NCBI GenBank assembly: GCA_010671905.1
Contig: JAAHII010000001.1
Location: 806,001-870,000, forward strand
Source: Leptolyngbya sp. SIOISBB
GTDB taxonomy: Bacteria > Cyanobacteriota > Cyanobacteriia > Phormidesmidales > Phormidesmidaceae
DNA: 64,000 bases
Direction: 5' to 3'
The position numbers and the translations under genes were made by a program. The notes below the pieces were generated by a model. That model was given only the letters and a program-made list of their open reading frames with translations. It searched no databases and was not told where the DNA came from. The stretch's first letter is position 1. Each line of letters starts with the position of its first letter. Of this stretch, positions 15,889 to 23,038 are shown piece by piece.

Positions 15889-17550
15889 CTACGGCAACAG
15901 CTTCATGTCTTGACTCGGTAGTTGAACCTCCTGAGAATGTGTCGCTAGAAATTGATGGAACTCTTCTATCGGCATTGGTTTAGCCCAAAGATATCCTTGC
16001 CCGTAACGCACGCCTTTTTTCAGTAAACCCTGCTTTTGAAATTCAGTCTCAACCCCTTCGGCGACCAGTGTCACCTGCAGACGCCGTCCCAGGTCAATCA
16101 TGCCCTCTAATAAAGAAGTTGCATGTACCGGCAGTTCGCCATCAGTAATGAACCGGCGGTCAATTTTGAGATAATCAACCTTTAATTTTGAGAGGTAACT
16201 GATACCAGAATGACCAGTCCCGAAATCATCTAAGGCGATTTTGGCACCTTGATCCTGAATATCTAGCAAGGCCTTGGGGATATTGGTCTGGTTATCTTCA
16301 ATAAGGATATTTTCAGTGATTTCAAAAATTAAGTTTTTACTAATTTGATGATATTTTTTGAGGTGATTAACGATCCGACGGCTGTCATTTCCTGAAACCA
16401 ACTGAATCGGTGACAAATTGATTGAGAGATATAAATATGGATGCTCTATCAATAATTCATAAAGGTCTTCGATCGCCTTCTGAATTATCCAGTCTCCCAA
16501 CTTGACAATCAGCTTAGTCTCTTCAGCAACCGGAATAAATACGCCTGGAAACAATAAGCCTCGATCAGTATGCTGCCACCGAATCAAGGCTTCACAGCCA
16601 ATGCAACTGCCCGTTTCCATATCGACAACAGGTTGGTAATGCAGCCTGAATTCATCATTAAATAAAGCACGAGGGATATCCCCTTCTAAGGACTTTTGTG
16701 GTGGGAAGAAGCGACTACCGAAGAGGGCAATTAAGAGGCTCGAAGCGATCGATAGAGGGATGCCAAACTTCCAGAAATCTATCCATTTCCCCAACACCCA
16801 GGCTTTAGAAACATCCACAACAATAGTTATATCACTTGCTTCGAGTCGTCTTTCTAGCTGGATTCTGGAACGATCTGGAGTTTGGCTACTTAATACACCA
16901 TTTCTCGGCAGCAGACCAGTTCCGGCAATGATTTCTTGGTCGCTATCTAAGACATAAGCAATATAACCATCAGGTCCTAAATTTAAACTGTTAAGTCCTA
17001 ACCAGTAATTGAGAATTACCGGATTCACTAATAAGTTGACCTCGCCTTGGTCTTCAGTCGGCAGGGCAAATATTACAGACTGTTCCTGCATGACGGTAGT
17101 CGTCACAGGCCCAATAATCTGCATTTCTTCGCGCAAAGGATCAGAACGATTACTCTCGGATAACAACACGGGCGGCTCGATCACGCCTAAATTGGTAAGA
17201 TAAAGATATCCATCTTGATTAACGATGCCAATTTCTCGAAACCGGGGATCCTCATAAACAATTTTTTGTAACCGGCGAACATGGCTTTCATTGATACTCG
17301 TCTCATCAAGGTCATTTGTTAGGTGAGACTTGACATCTTCCAAGGTGATCTCAGCTGCCCTCATGAGACTGCTCATTTGGCGATCGCCCAACTCTAAAAC
17401 AGTTCTAAGGTTCTGTTTTTCATTGAAAATTGTATGAAAATATCCCAAAAAAAATAGCAAGAATTGAGGCAACAGCGCGACCGAAAAAATCCCCAATCGG
17501 ACTCGATTAGAGCGTTTTGACCAGTGATGAGTCAAACTCTTTAGACGCAT
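15889..17550 (-). CDS. Membrane-bound EAL domain c-di-GMP phosphodiesterase
   Basis: EAL enzymes hydrolyse c-di-GMP to pGpG. The protein (553 residues from ATG 17550) has a transmembrane helix near residues 20-37, an extracytoplasmic sensor of about 220 residues, and a second helix near 262-280. An EAL domain (about 300-540) follows. Catalytic landmarks are present: CEALIRWQHTDRG, the Glu of EITENILIE and DDFGTGHSGISYL. There is no GGDEF domain, so it is a dedicated phosphodiesterase with a periplasmic sensor. A TTG at 17562 would add four residues. Confidence 0.88.
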   Translation of the reverse strand: MRLKSLTHHWSKRSNRVRLGIFSVALLPQFLLFFLGYFHTIFNEKQNLRTVLELGDRQMSSLMRAAEITLEDVKSHLTNDLDETSINESHVRRLQKIVYEDPRFREIGIVNQDGYLYLTNLGVIEPPVLLSESNRSDPLREEMQIIGPVTTTVMQEQSVIFALPTEDQGEVNLLVNPVILNYWLGLNSLNLGPDGYIAYVLDSDQEIIAGTGLLPRNGVLSSQTPDRSRIQLERRLEASDITIVVDVSKAWVLGKWIDFWKFGIPLSIASSLLIALFGSRFFPPQKSLEGDIPRALFNDEFRLHYQPVVDMETGSCIGCEALIRWQHTDRGLLFPGVFIPVAEETKLIVKLGDWIIQKAIEDLYELLIEHPYLYLSINLSPIQLVSGNDSRRIVNHLKKYHQISKNLIFEITENILIEDNQTNIPKALLDIQDQGAKIALDDFGTGHSGISYLSKLKVDYLKIDRRFITDGELPVHATSLLEGMIDLGRRLQVTLVAEGVETEFQKQGLLKKGVRYGQGYLWAKPMPIEEFHQFLATHSQEVQLPSQDMKLLP

Positions 17551-17861
17551 TATGATAACCAATAAGAGATAAAATTATTTGTAAATGATGTTCAAGCTTG
17601 GGGGATATTCTTAGATTAAGCACCCATTCAGTTTAATTGATTTTCATAGGCTTTTGTCTGGTCAGAATATCCCAGTCGAAGAAAAGCTCACTAGCCGTAT
17701 TAACCGCAAGCAAATGTTGAAGAGACTCAACAAAGCGATAGGGGATTCTCTGAAATCTTAGTAAAGTTAGTTGATAATACTGACTAAACCAGCTCCCATG
17801 CCAATTTCTCATCAGACTGAATGCTCTCGATAGCCCTTAAAAGCGACTGATTTTAGCAAAG

Positions 17862-17887
17862 TCATGAAATTCTCAGCAATTTCATGA
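17862..17887. repeat. Perfect 10-bp AT-rich hairpin in a long gene-free gap
   Basis: TCATGAAATT (17862-17871) pairs perfectly with AATTTCATGA (17878-17887) around a 6-nt loop. It lies in the 830-nt gap 17551-18380, where no gene is supported. Confidence 0.5.
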
Positions 17888-18155
17888 GGCTATAGCAAGC
17901 TGCAGTTCGCTAAAAAGGGAGCATTCTGAACTAGCTTCAACATTATTTTGCCCACCTTGACAGCAGCAACAACGTATCGAGACCAGTCTTGGATTCTGGG
18001 CGACAGTGAACTTTCTGGTAGATCAGACCTTTGGCAAATCAAGACTACAGTGGTGTGGGATCACGCTTTAGTTGGCCGGATATCTACCGGCAAATCTACT
18101 GGTTGAATGAACTTTCCACCTCGCTCCTGCTAAGAAACTCCTCAACATCACAGTG

Positions 18156-18284
18156 GGGCTGCCGTGTAGAACAGCAGGGCCTGGCCAGTGAGCTATGGTC
18201 TGCAAGACTCTGTGACCCTAACGAACGGAAACACTTCACGGAAATTGCCTGGCTGTTGTTTAAGTCTTGTTCTACAGCCCTCAA
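18156..18284. repeat. Small inverted-repeat element, possible MITE or IS remnant
   Basis: TGTAGAACA at 18165-18173 is the exact reverse complement of TGTTCTACA at 18268-18276, and GGGCTG-like sequence flanks both. AACAGC and GCTGTT add inner pairing. The roughly 110-bp unit sits in a gene-free region. No transposase motif was recognised on either strand. Confidence 0.35.
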
Positions 18285-18380
18285 TGTTACGTGAGCCTTG
18301 ATTATTTTGCCTCAGAGGAAATATTTGTAGCTGGACCCAATTTAGGCAACGGTACTGATCATCAGCATTGCCCTTGGGCA

Positions 18381-19070
18381 TTACAGATCGAATGGAATGA
18401 TCGGAGTTTCACTGCGTAGGCGATCGCGATCAACAGCTGACAGCACTTGGTTTTCCGCTTTAGGCGACTGCAAACACTGAAGGACCAAATCTGCCACATC
18501 CAGGCGCGTGATGCTACCGGCCACTCGCACCTCTGTAAGCAAAATGCCTTTGCCGGTGGCCGGTTCTGATAGCAAACCACCGGGGCGCACAATGGTGAAC
18601 GGTAAACCACTCGCTGCCAGATGTTCTTCCGCTTTGGCTTTGGCGAGCAGGGCTGGACGCAAGGTTTCTAGCACTGGCTCGGGTAGGGCGATCGCACTGT
18701 CGCGCACACCAATCGACGACACCAACAAAAAGCGCTGGCAGGGTAATTCTTTAACTGCATCTATCAGGTGCCGATTGCCCAAGTAGTCTGACCGGGGCGC
18801 ATCTCGCTCCATACCTTTGCCGCCCAGGGTCGTTACCACCGCAAACGGGTCGTTGCCAAAACAGCGCACTGCTGAGACCACCGCTTCAGGGTCGAGGGCA
18901 TCGCCAACGTGCACTTCCGTCCCCAATGATTCGAGCTGAGATCGCGTGTCATCCGTGCGCAACAGTACCGCAACTCGGTAGCCTTGTTGAACTAAACCTT
19001 TGACGACTTCAAAGCCAACGCCACGGCTGGCTCCAGCGACGAAACAGTTGCGGGGATGAGAGGCAGACAT
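18381..19070 (-). CDS. Atypical SDR NAD(P)-binding protein (NmrA/SDR5-like)
   Basis: The 229-residue protein is a Rossmann-fold atypical short-chain dehydrogenase. The N-terminal nucleotide loop is GASRGVGFEVVKGL, followed by DALDPEAVVSAV, FLLVSSIGVRD and FTIVRPGGLLSEP. The classical YxxxK is replaced by LLAKAKAEEHL, as in SDR5 members. Such proteins serve as reductases or redox-sensing chaperones; the substrate is unknown. The first 26 codons and the upstream region are duplicated at 21262-21423, where the copy is truncated. It sits downstream, on the same strand, of a pentapeptide-gene remnant. Confidence 0.8.
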   Translation of the reverse strand: MSASHPRNCFVAGASRGVGFEVVKGLVQQGYRVAVLLRTDDTRSQLESLGTEVHVGDALDPEAVVSAVRCFGNDPFAVVTTLGGKGMERDAPRSDYLGNRHLIDAVKELPCQRFLLVSSIGVRDSAIALPEPVLETLRPALLAKAKAEEHLAASGLPFTIVRPGGLLSEPATGKGILLTEVRVAGSITRLDVADLVLQCLQSPKAENQVLSAVDRDRLRSETPIIPFDL

Positions 19071-19072
19071 GG

Positions 19073-19158
19073 TTACCTGATTGCATCGGTCAAGTCACAG
19101 TGTGTCACATCTACGTTGGAGAAGATACAACCTCTCAGGCTAGCCTAGCGAAATGAGG
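19073..19158 (-). pseudogene. 3' remnant of a pentapeptide-repeat membrane gene
   Basis: Read on the minus strand this fragment encodes FR*ASLRGCIFSNVDVTHC followed by DLTDAIR and a stop. It matches the last 24 residues of the intact gene at 21338-22141 with about ten differences and one in-frame stop. It ends 3 nt before the SDR start, the same spacing as at the other copy. It is therefore the trace of a duplicated pentapeptide-SDR gene pair. Confidence 0.75.
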
Positions 19159-19266
19159 TAGTTGAAGCGTGCTCAGCAATCGCCTGCTCTGCCATCGGTT
19201 TCGTGGCGCTGCGAGCAGGTATAAACCCACACCAGCAGACATCAATATGCGCTTTTGAGTATTTCA

Positions 19267-20904
19267 CTATCCAGTGGGGACGATCGCGCTTGCCGCGCGC
19301 TCGCGCATTAGGTAAGCCATCATCAGCCCCTTGCCCTTAATCGAGATTTCGCCCCGACAGTCAAACGTGTAATGTTCTTTGAGCGTTTCGTAGGTGTCTT
19401 GGGTGACTTGAATTTCGCCCGCAATGCCAGCCGATTCCATGCGGCTAGCAATGTTGACGGTGTCGCCCCAGAGGTCGTAGATAAATTTCTTTTGGCCAAT
19501 CACCCCGGCAATCACCGGCCCTGTGTTGATACCAATGCGCATGGTAAAAGGGCGATCGTGCTTTTGGCTAAAGGCAACGATTGCTCGTTGCATGTCGAGG
19601 GCCATTTCGGCCATGGCGATCGCATGATCGTGTCGATGCTCGGGTAAGCCCCCGACAACCATGTAGGCATCGCCAATGGTTTTGATTTTTTCTAATCCAT
19701 GCTTCTCTGCCAGAACATCAAAAGTTGAGAAAATTTCGTTGAGCAGTATCACCAACATTTGTGGCGATAGCTCAGTCGATAGTTGGGTAAAGTTCACAAT
19801 GTCAGCAAAGAGCACTGTGGCCTCAGCAAAGTGGTCAGCGATCGTACCTTCTTGCTGTTTGAGTCGGGTAGCAATGGGTTGGGGCAAGATATTGAGCAGT
19901 AACTGCTCCGATTTTTCCTTCTCGATTTCTAACTCTTGTTGGACTTTGGCGCGCTCAGCCATCGTCGCGGCCAAGGCAAGCGCCGTGATGATTAGTACGC
20001 AAATGTAAGCCTGCAGGGCCAACACGGCCTGCTCGGGCCGTTCAGAAAAATCAAAGAAAGGCCCAACGTTTTGAATAAAGCCCCACCCGGCAAAACTAGT
20101 GGTGACCATGATGGCGATCGCGGCACCGGTAACCCCAAGCCTAAACGCACCCCAAACAATAAACGGAAAGGGTAAATACTCTAAAGGGAACGGCGCAATA
20201 TCAGCCCGTACCGGGGCAGCAAACACGAACCAGCTCAACAACGACAGACCCGCGATCCACAATATGCCTAAGAACTTGCGATTGAGCGTACGGAACTGAT
20301 GAGACCACTCCGGCAACGTCAGAATGACCGGAAAGAGAATTAGCACACCACTAAAGTTACCAATCCACCAGTCAAACCAGACCGTCATGAATTCCTTCGT
20401 GATGTTAGGGGCTTGGAGGCAGCAAATGAGAATGCCCAAGGTCGCACTGACCGCCGCCGGAATGAATCCAGCACAAATGACCAGCAAGCCGACATCGCGC
20501 AGGTGATCGAAGCGGTGCGAGAAATTGGTTCGCAGTAGCAACCAAGAACTCAATAGCGCCTGCACCGTATTGTTAAGAGCAGACAGGAGACTGGTGAGGG
20601 GGTCGTGCACTCCCGAAAAGTGATTATTGAGCAGTGTCCCTAGGGCCACAGCAGGCCAAAACTTGAGTCCCATGAGAAACAGGATAAGTTGGCTGTAGGC
20701 AGCGGGAGGCCAAATGGGGTAAACGCGCAGATTGTCTGGTAGCGGAAACTTGAAAACGAGCTGCACTAACAGCCAGTAACCGACTGCCAATAAGGCGATC
20801 GCGCCCAAATATCTGAGTCCTTTTAGCTGCCGCGATGTCTCCCAAAACACTGGTCGGCGACGGGGACGCAGTGCATGTATCCACCAGGTTCTCTGCGGCG
20901 GCAT
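19267..20904 (-). CDS. MASE1 membrane sensor class III adenylate cyclase
   Basis: Residues about 28-310 form a MASE1 integral membrane sensor with roughly eight helices. A short coiled linker (KVQQELEIEKEKSEQLLLN) leads to a class III cyclase domain at about 350-530. The metal Asp residues are in LFADIVNFTQL and KTIGDAYMVVGG. The Lys (KIKTIGD) and Asp (YDLWGDTVN) pair specifies ATP over GTP. The transition-state Asn and Arg are in VNIASRME. The product is therefore an active-looking adenylate cyclase making cAMP in response to an unknown membrane signal. It is the only gene between two halves of a duplicated locus. Confidence 0.9.
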   Translation of the reverse strand: MPPQRTWWIHALRPRRRPVFWETSRQLKGLRYLGAIALLAVGYWLLVQLVFKFPLPDNLRVYPIWPPAAYSQLILFLMGLKFWPAVALGTLLNNHFSGVHDPLTSLLSALNNTVQALLSSWLLLRTNFSHRFDHLRDVGLLVICAGFIPAAVSATLGILICCLQAPNITKEFMTVWFDWWIGNFSGVLILFPVILTLPEWSHQFRTLNRKFLGILWIAGLSLLSWFVFAAPVRADIAPFPLEYLPFPFIVWGAFRLGVTGAAIAIMVTTSFAGWGFIQNVGPFFDFSERPEQAVLALQAYICVLIITALALAATMAERAKVQQELEIEKEKSEQLLLNILPQPIATRLKQQEGTIADHFAEATVLFADIVNFTQLSTELSPQMLVILLNEIFSTFDVLAEKHGLEKIKTIGDAYMVVGGLPEHRHDHAIAMAEMALDMQRAIVAFSQKHDRPFTMRIGINTGPVIAGVIGQKKFIYDLWGDTVNIASRMESAGIAGEIQVTQDTYETLKEHYTFDCRGEISIKGKGLMMAYLMRERAASAIVPTG

Positions 20905-21261
20905 GTAGACTCACCTCATTGTGAAAAATTAGCCCATATCAACGTTCTGGCTGCAAGTCCCCCAACATCATCGCTAGTGTCACCAAAATAGACGATGAAA
21001 CTGCGACTTAGGTATAAAGCGAAACTGATTTAATGTTTTTTATTCCAGTAGTTGCAGGTGATTGAATTTATCTACTCGCCGCGTCAGATTCTACAAGGTA
21101 ATTCACGCTGAAGGTGTCTGATTCCTGGCCGATTTCGTCAAATCAACCGGCTGATTTGAGGGAGCCGATTCGGGTTTGAGGGCAACAAAATCAGAGGATA
21201 AGGAGAATGAAGATCAAGACTGAACCTCATGATGGCTTTCCTTGCGGCAACAATCAACAAG
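20905..21261. other. Intergenic region with one perfect 8-bp hairpin
   Basis: TCAAATCA (21138-21145) pairs with TGATTTGA (21152-21159) around ACCGGC. Apart from this, no gene was recognised. It separates the cyclase promoter from the duplicated SDR fragment. Confidence 0.4.
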
Positions 21262-21335
21262 CCTTTGGTGACTTCAAAGCCAACACCACGGCTGGCAACA
21301 GCGACGAAACAGTTGCGAGGATGAGAGGCAGACAT
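21262..21335 (-). pseudogene. 5' remnant of the SDR gene
   Basis: From ATG 21335 the fragment reads MSASHPRNCFVAVASRGVG then FEVTKGL, nearly identical to the start of the SDR gene at 19070, and then diverges into unrelated sequence. Over about 109 nt around the start I count roughly 8 mismatches. It follows the intact pentapeptide gene by 2 nt. It is a truncated duplicate and unlikely to be functional. Confidence 0.8.
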
Positions 21336-21337
21336 GA

Positions 21338-22141
21338 TTACCTGATGGCATCGGTCAAGTCACAGTGTGTGATATCCGTGTTGGGAAAGCTGCACCCGGT
21401 TAAGTTCGCGTTGCGGAATGAGGTTGCAGAAAAGCGCTGTAGCGATCGCCCCCCATGCCACAAACTGCGTAAGGTTATGCCAATGGCGATTAGCGCAATT
21501 ACGGCCCAGAAGAACCCTGGTAGCCAATGGCCTGTGGTGAAAAGACTGCTGCCCGTCGTCCACGTCCAAAAGGCATAGCCATAAGCGGCGATCGCCCCCA
21601 AGATTCCACAAATTGCCTCCATCAAAGGCGTCTGCCAGCGCCAAGTCAAGATGCCCCCTAGTGACCCCAAAACAATTGCGCCACCAATAGCAAAATTGGC
21701 ACTGTTGTCTGCCCAACTGCCGACATAAAAGAACCCCATCAAGGCAGTAATAGCAATGCCCAGCATGAGCCGAGCCACTTTGGCACAGGGCCAAGATAGT
21801 GTTTGCAGACCAGCACTGAGGGTAGCGATCACCAAAACCATCGTCAAAATCTGAACATAGGTCCAAGCGGCGGCCCCCGGTTGTGTGCCCATTGAGGCAA
21901 ACACCAGCGAACTCACCGCGTGGAATAAGAGCACAGCCAATGGCCCGATCAGACATAGCAAGATCGCCCCGGTTCCCTGCGTCCCCACCCGACAATTCTC
22001 AAACTTGGCTCCCCGCAAATCAGCCTGGAGAAAATCACATCCGCGCAAATCACATTGCTGAAACTGGGCGTGTTGGAGCGATCGCCCTCGAAAACTCTGA
22101 CACCGCAGATCTTGATTGATAAAACTGAGGGGAGGAGACAT
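21338..22141 (-). CDS. Pentapeptide-repeat protein with central membrane domain
   Basis: The 267-residue protein begins with pentapeptide repeats (about 10-50, with LQHAQFQQCDLRGCDF). Six or so transmembrane helices follow (about 58-230), and it ends with a second short pentapeptide block (SFRNANLTGCSFPNTDIT). This split layout is common in cyanobacterial membrane pentapeptide proteins, whose function is unknown. Its 3' end is part of a duplicated segment whose other copy is the remnant at 19073-19158. It diverges from the glycosidase gene with only 15 nt between start codons. Confidence 0.8.
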   Translation of the reverse strand: MSPPLSFINQDLRCQSFRGRSLQHAQFQQCDLRGCDFLQADLRGAKFENCRVGTQGTGAILLCLIGPLAVLLFHAVSSLVFASMGTQPGAAAWTYVQILTMVLVIATLSAGLQTLSWPCAKVARLMLGIAITALMGFFYVGSWADNSANFAIGGAIVLGSLGGILTWRWQTPLMEAICGILGAIAAYGYAFWTWTTGSSLFTTGHWLPGFFWAVIALIAIGITLRSLWHGGRSLQRFSATSFRNANLTGCSFPNTDITHCDLTDAIR

Positions 22142-22156
22142 GGAGGAAATGAGGGG

Positions 22157-23038
22157 ATGAGGGTAAAACAGACAGCTTGGGGGTTGGGCGGTCTGGTGTT
22201 GTTGGCGCCGCTGTTACTGTATACCCGTCAACAGTGGCAGCGATCGCCGCGCGTCCCCTCCACTCAAGAACTTTTTGCCGGTGTCACCTATCAACGCCGA
22301 GTTGCCGATGAACCATGGCCTCAGGTGATCCACATCGTCACGCTGGATCTGACCACTCCCGGCATCGCGATCGTTGCCAGTGCGGGTAGCCCAGACAATG
22401 ATGAGATGGAAACCACCGCGCAAACAACGGCTCAGTTTCTAGAGCAAACGGCGACACAAGTAGCCGTAAATGCCAATTTTTTCTACCCCTTTGAAGAAAA
22501 GACCCCTTGGAATTTTCGTCCTCATGTCGGCGATCGCACCAACATTCTCGGTGCGGGCGTTGCTGATGGTGAGTCTTACTCGCCCTCCGAGGCCCACTGG
22601 CCAGCCCTGTGTTTTGATGGTGACAATCGTGCCCAGATTGCGGCTGGCGGTATATGTCCCGAGGGAACGCAGCAGGCGATCGCGGGCAATCAACAGCTCG
22701 TCGCTGATGGCGAACCGGTCCCCTTTGACTTTCGCGATCGGGCCTATGCTCGAGTGATGGCCGTGGTGAGTCGAGGCGGTGAAGAACTCTCCCTGGTGGT
22801 TGTCGACGGCAAACAGCCTCACTACAGCGAAGGGGCAACTTTAGCCCAGCTAACCGATATTGCCCTCAGCCTCAATGCCGATGCTGCCCTCAACCTCGAC
22901 GGCGGTGGCTCTACTACGCTGGTCATCGACACCCCCAACGGCCCCCAGCCACTGAACGCGCCCATCCACACCAAGTGGCCGATGCGGCTGCGTCCCGTCG
23001 CCAATCATCTCGGCATCCGGGCTCGGTCGCATGAATAA
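22157..23038 (+). CDS. Phosphodiester glycosidase family protein (NAGPA-like), exported
   Basis: The 293-residue protein has an N-terminal membrane anchor or signal (WGLGGLVLLAPLLLY). A phosphodiester glycosidase domain follows, related to the enzyme that uncovers mannose-6-phosphate and to bacterial YngK/exopolysaccharide homologues. Landmarks are VAVNANFFYPF and ALNLDGGGSTTLVI. It probably acts on a surface glycopolymer. ATG 22157 is chosen because GGAGG at 22142-22146 gives 10-nt spacing; the longer frame to 22055 would overlap the divergent gene. Confidence 0.82.
   Translation: MRVKQTAWGLGGLVLLAPLLLYTRQQWQRSPRVPSTQELFAGVTYQRRVADEPWPQVIHIVTLDLTTPGIAIVASAGSPDNDEMETTAQTTAQFLEQTATQVAVNANFFYPFEEKTPWNFRPHVGDRTNILGAGVADGESYSPSEAHWPALCFDGDNRAQIAAGGICPEGTQQAIAGNQQLVADGEPVPFDFRDRAYARVMAVVSRGGEELSLVVVDGKQPHYSEGATLAQLTDIALSLNADAALNLDGGGSTTLVIDTPNGPQPLNAPIHTKWPMRLRPVANHLGIRARSHE

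Follow-up and report, generated by a model that had tools for sequence, protein, structure and literature searches.

How did a MASE1-type cyclase gene come to lie between a pentapeptide-repeat gene and an SDR-like gene in the filamentous cyanobacterium Leptolyngbya sp. SIOISBB, with a fragment of each neighbor left on the opposite side? Within the 64,000-nucleotide stretch of DNA that we analysed (the window), all three genes are on the minus strand: the whole SDR-like gene (18381-19070; NAD_binding_10, PF13460, by domain match), the cyclase gene (19267-20904; MASE1 and Guanylate_cyc, PF05231 and PF00211, by domain match), which orthologue comparison places at another site in relatives, and the whole pentapeptide-repeat gene (21338-22141; PF00805, by domain match). 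An NAGPA-domain gene on the plus strand (22157-23038; domain match and synteny) is the divergent partner of the pentapeptide gene both here and in relatives. Sequence comparison recognizes two minus-strand relics: a pentapeptide-gene 3′ relic of about 31 codons with one internal TAG (19073-19168), on the side of the whole SDR gene, and an SDR 5′ relic of about 25 codons (21262-21335), on the side of the whole pentapeptide gene. The complete copies left in the locus are one each of the pentapeptide, SDR, and cyclase genes, and the arrangement is as an earlier note had described it, with the SDR gene whole and the pentapeptide gene a fragment on one side, the reverse on the other, and the cyclase between.

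The relics belong to a pair of direct repeats on the minus strand, delimited by repeat alignment and genome BLAST. The left copy (B; 18994-19173) comprises the pentapeptide 3′ relic, the SDR leader, and the SDR start, and is part of the whole SDR gene, while the right copy (A; 21259-21438) comprises the pentapeptide 3′ end, the leader, and the SDR 5′ relic, and is part of the whole pentapeptide gene. The ungapped alignment of the two copies, offset by 2265 nt throughout, shows 81% identity over 180 nt, and in BLAST against the whole 8.3-Mb genome the copies match each other (83% over 166 nt, E=6.3e-44), which confirms the direct repeats proposed earlier at 18997-19158 and 21262-21423. The earlier estimate of about 93 percent identity over the first 109 nt is close to the 104/114 (91%) measured over the SDR start and leader together; past the pentapeptide part of the repeat, only 7 of the next 24 nt match between A and B. 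Read on the minus strand, either copy runs from the pentapeptide-gene 3′ end through the stop and two bases into the SDR start, and both repeats thus trace to a single ancestral junction, as expected of an insertion or duplication scar. That the resemblance is a chance similarity or an assembly artefact is scarcely credible given this E value within the genome, the location of the window within a 7.9-Mb contig, and the many sites at which the copies differ, as a single segment entered twice in the assembly would not.

Between the repeat copies lies an insert of 2.1 kb, in which the cyclase is the sole gene-sized reading frame recognized. An insert flanked by direct repeats could also reflect a target-site duplication made by a transposable element or site-specific integrase that carried the cyclase as cargo. 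The usual target-site duplications are far shorter than 166-180 nt, however, and a repeat of this length is far too long by comparison. No recombinase was recognized in the insert, where short reading frames were listed and the family scan covered the larger ones, and BLAST against the whole genome returned the two repeat copies and nothing further above chance (next-best match E=2.4). With neither a recombinase in the insert nor repeated ends elsewhere in the genome, we rejected a mobile-element target-site duplication as very improbable.

The two halves of the repeat have diverged unequally. Compared with the right copy, the SDR start (18997-19070) has 6/74 mismatches and the leader (19071-19110) 4/40, while the pentapeptide part (19111-19166) has 20/56; the SDR and pentapeptide parts differ significantly (Fisher p=1.3e-4). 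This contrast bears on the earlier proposal that the locus was duplicated in tandem and that either copy lost the gene kept by the other. If the pentapeptide-SDR pair had been duplicated in full and the cyclase had then taken the place of the inner SDR gene and the inner pentapeptide gene, exactly the observed anatomy would result. Yet a single duplication leaves, for each part, a functional copy opposite one that drifts freely, so that the two relics should share one age and their divergence values should be alike. The similar divergence of both relics expected under one-step tandem duplication with reciprocal loss is not what we observe, and a single event is disfavored because the SDR and pentapeptide relics have diverged to very different degrees. 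An intact duplication was also not found among the relatives examined. Tandem duplication thus stands as one of several possible histories, and we consider the full duplication with subsequent replacement unlikely. The pentapeptide part may be the older one; alternatively, the leader and SDR start were homogenized by gene conversion, which could mimic unequal divergence of the relics. In addition, the SDR relic in A appears to be decaying, as its conserved Gly at codon 13, present in 6/6 relatives compared, is replaced by Val.

The junction itself can be compared with the corresponding loci in relatives. SDR orthologues occur at 68-78% identity in seven other genomes of the family. In the congener G004 (locus L104), the pentapeptide gene is upstream of the SDR gene in the same orientation, 254 nt apart and without a cyclase, and this is the one relative in which the junction genes are adjacent with no insert. 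The synteny check suggested in the earlier note, that the cyclase be absent where the pentapeptide and SDR genes adjoin, is thereby borne out, although the 254-nt spacer of G004 has no similarity to the leader. As G004 is the only relative with the SDR gene beside the pentapeptide gene, the ancestral adjacency of the two rests on this genome together with the leader remnants. Among the relatives' SDR loci examined, we found no case of this cyclase between pentapeptide and SDR genes, and therefore none of the layout named earlier as grounds for refutation, in which unrelated sequences would flank such a cyclase. In G001 and G005, the SDR gene adjoins HcyBio without a cyclase, and no pentapeptide orthologue was detected in either genome at E<=1e-20 (weak matches, E ~1e-7 or higher). 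In the window, SDR and HcyBio are separated by an EAL-domain gene (15889-17562) with a G+C of 43% and a GC3 of 0.43, versus 0.56-0.61 in the neighbors compared, and an AT-richer 0.8-kb stretch (44%) lies beside it. An NAGPA match is present in 11/13 pentapeptide loci of relatives (the match in L054 is short) and absent beside the pentapeptide gene in L104 of G004 and in L115, where the pentapeptide gene is at a contig end. The pentapeptide gene of G003 (L114:6054-6850) is interrupted or frameshifted, matching in two pieces with one TGA inside.

The cyclase has a different usual position. Because related catalytic domains recur in many proteins of this genome (20 matches), we defined a cyclase orthologue as a full-length match at E<=1e-130. 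Orthologues are found in 17/63 family genomes, this one included, and the window cyclase is a member of the family's MASE1 cyclase orthologue group, as it matches over its full length in both domains and its tree is in keeping with the relations of the genomes. We compared the surroundings in five of the 16 other orthologue genomes (G003, G004, G012, G011, and G018). In 5/5 of these loci (L109, L110, L111, L112, L113), the cyclase is followed by a PadR-type regulator in the same orientation (the G003 protein matches PF03551 and PF10400); a GIDE-domain gene lies further downstream in 4/5, and 3/5 have a divergent acetyl-CoA synthetase gene upstream, about 1.9 kb away in G011. The cyclase-PadR-GIDE order (L109-L113) is a candidate second-messenger and regulator neighborhood in these cyanobacteria. 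None of the PadR, GIDE, or acetyl-CoA synthetase genes is beside the window cyclase. The insert, in other words, has another home in relatives, as expected of an insertion or duplication scar.

In this genome, that home is vacant. The PadR orthologue is found at C1:5605887-5606417, with the GIDE and RPE65 genes kept in conserved order, and neither a cyclase nor a remnant was detected across the 19.5 kb examined. The PadR site of G001 is also without a cyclase and has an intervening gene in common with this genome; in G005, PadR and the same intervening gene are found, with no GIDE gene before the contig end. Searches for a cyclase remnant at the PadR sites of this genome, G001, and G005 gave nothing beyond chance-level matches (E 2.7 or more), and no cyclase orthologue at E<=1e-130 was found in G001, G005, G002, or G008, the latter two being fragmented assemblies. 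At the cyclase-less PadR site (L160:6522-9290), the genes between PadR and GIDE resemble PEP-CTERM-type surface-protein genes, judged by reading translations; one of them is apparently split into two frames, and relatives of the 6522-7523 gene occupy the corresponding site of G001 and G005.

The sequences on either side of the window cyclase do not point back to this site. Upstream, a 354-nt stretch (20905-21258; G+C 44%) is unlike the upstream regions of five orthologues, and the 93 nt that separate the cyclase stop from the left repeat (19174-19266) match only copies of this locus among the loci compared. In 10 comparisons of the 5′ and 3′ flanks with those of five orthologues, none scored above the best of 100 shuffles. 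We thus rejected the idea that flanks were carried along from the old site, and since the flanks match no orthologue flank, the ends of the insert are not traceable.

Taken with the cyclase-free adjacency in G004, the usual place of the cyclase elsewhere in relatives supports the integration or duplication scar proposed in the earlier note, and we conclude that the locus is a real rearrangement scar, produced by an ordinary class of event. As to the origin of the insert, it is fairly probable that the native cyclase moved to the pentapeptide-SDR junction, of which two partial copies remain. In the cyclase tree, this genome groups with G003 with moderate support (84/90), and in the PadR tree, it groups with G001 and G005 (96/92) and then with G003 (80/75); the two agree once the cyclase-less G001 and G005 are set aside. 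These trees would fit a native gene that moved and would also fit a gene that was lost and later regained from a congener. The latter sequence of events also fits because G001 and G005, the sisters in the PadR tree, are without the cyclase (E<=1e-130). Other observations also count against relocation: no genome compared outside this clade shows tight pentapeptide-SDR adjacency, the cyclase flanks match those of no orthologue, the pentapeptide gene is paired with NAGPA in most loci of relatives, and in the SDR tree, G008, which is assigned to another genus, groups with G001 and G005.

The same data bear on horizontal acquisition, in which congener DNA carrying the cyclase, a pentapeptide relic, and an SDR gene recombined with the resident pair, one end being exchanged by homology and the other joined illegitimately. 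Such an origin accounts for a pentapeptide part that is more diverged than the SDR part, and it agrees with the absence of the cyclase from G001 and G005. It would also agree with a weak third-position excess in the left pentapeptide part, where third codon positions hold 11/22 differences (one-sided p=0.08, not significant), a weak hint that this part may have diverged partly as a working gene. The donor arrangement, however, is absent from the loci examined, the cyclase has a neighbor-like G+C (52%) and GC3 (0.61), and its tree is compatible with vertical descent, although a congeneric donor would look the same in both of these last respects. We regard acquisition from a congener as possible but somewhat doubtful.

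Under relocation of the native gene, the ancestor would have carried the pentapeptide gene directly followed by the SDR gene. The cyclase would then have left its place beside PadR, and recombination would have joined it into the pentapeptide-SDR junction, leaving two partial junction copies, for example if one end was joined illegitimately and the other arose through a homology-driven crossover or a partial tandem duplication. The unequal halves could reflect the combination of two junction alleles or paralogues that had already diverged, or later gene conversion of the leader and SDR start. With one genome of the species compared, partial tandem duplication, homology with illegitimate joining, and a donor allele are all candidate routes. 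Partial tandem duplication and insertion-duplication scars occur in bacterial genomes, and this locus resembles them in having an insert framed by direct repeats that are cut-down copies of the genes on either side; unlike them, it has unequally diverged repeat halves, and its insert is a gene whose place in relatives is known. Homology-facilitated illegitimate recombination, according to the summary of one report, was described for incoming linear DNA in experiments (PMC3240628). Integration of this kind, homologous on one side and illegitimate on the other, could likewise leave a partial duplication of the homologous stretch, whereas here only the end product is seen, and neither a donor nor an intermediate was found in the loci examined. 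Of the other literature matches listed, one set held no paper bearing on this locus and another included two papers on c-di-GMP signalling.

Although the gene fragments look like debris, the putative leader in left copy B (19071-19110, minus strand), which overlaps the pentapeptide relic, is an exception and probably still serves SDR expression. By alignment, these 40 nt before the SDR gene are 36/40 identical in G001, with chance-level identity further upstream, and the third codon positions of the window and G001 SDR genes are only 44% identical. Weighing against a leader signal, 36-nt windows inside the SDR coding sequence, which is under protein constraint, also reach 92%. A 26-nt core (<=3 mismatches) occurs in 2/6 genus genomes, solely at A, B, and the G001 SDR start, and a reversed control pattern gave zero matches in the same search of the six genomes. 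The MAG locus L039 is 18/20 identical at 20-40 nt upstream of the start and 10/20 in the near half, and L041 keeps 10/20 and 12/20 positions; by eye, the leader is not clearly kept in G005, G004, G003, G002, G012, or G008. The leader seems to derive from the end of the pentapeptide gene, as pentapeptide genes of G061 and G003 without an SDR gene beside them end in similar codons (likewise in G002, within a short contig). Counted by eye, 3/11 codons differ between the G001 and window leaders, none synonymously, and a short reading frame in the leader starts with ATG in G001 and with GTG in the window and L039. No known RNA family of the Rfam type matched in 17500-22300 at E<=0.5, no sigma-70-type promoter was found in 18300-22300 (3.2 expected by chance), and no CRP-type site, for which the motif is TGTGA-N6-TCACA, was seen by eye in the leader.

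As the G001 genome lacks the pentapeptide gene, these alignments suggest a retained leader. We tentatively raise the possibility that the last ~12 pentapeptide codons doubled as a cis-acting leader of the SDR gene and persisted in several lineages after the pentapeptide gene itself had gone, namely in the left copy of the window, in G001, and, more weakly, in L039. If true, the rearrangement copied the leader, such that one copy still encodes a protein tail and the other is a leader only, possibly in the form of a short coupled reading frame.

Neither the relocation nor the leader is a new kind of system. Rather, the locus allows one to trace how a signalling gene lies outside its conserved cyclase-PadR neighborhood and is joined at a new place without a recognizable mobile element. 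Both the former and the present site can be seen, as can a relative's junction that has no cyclase, and a short conserved leader may have persisted after its encoding gene was lost.
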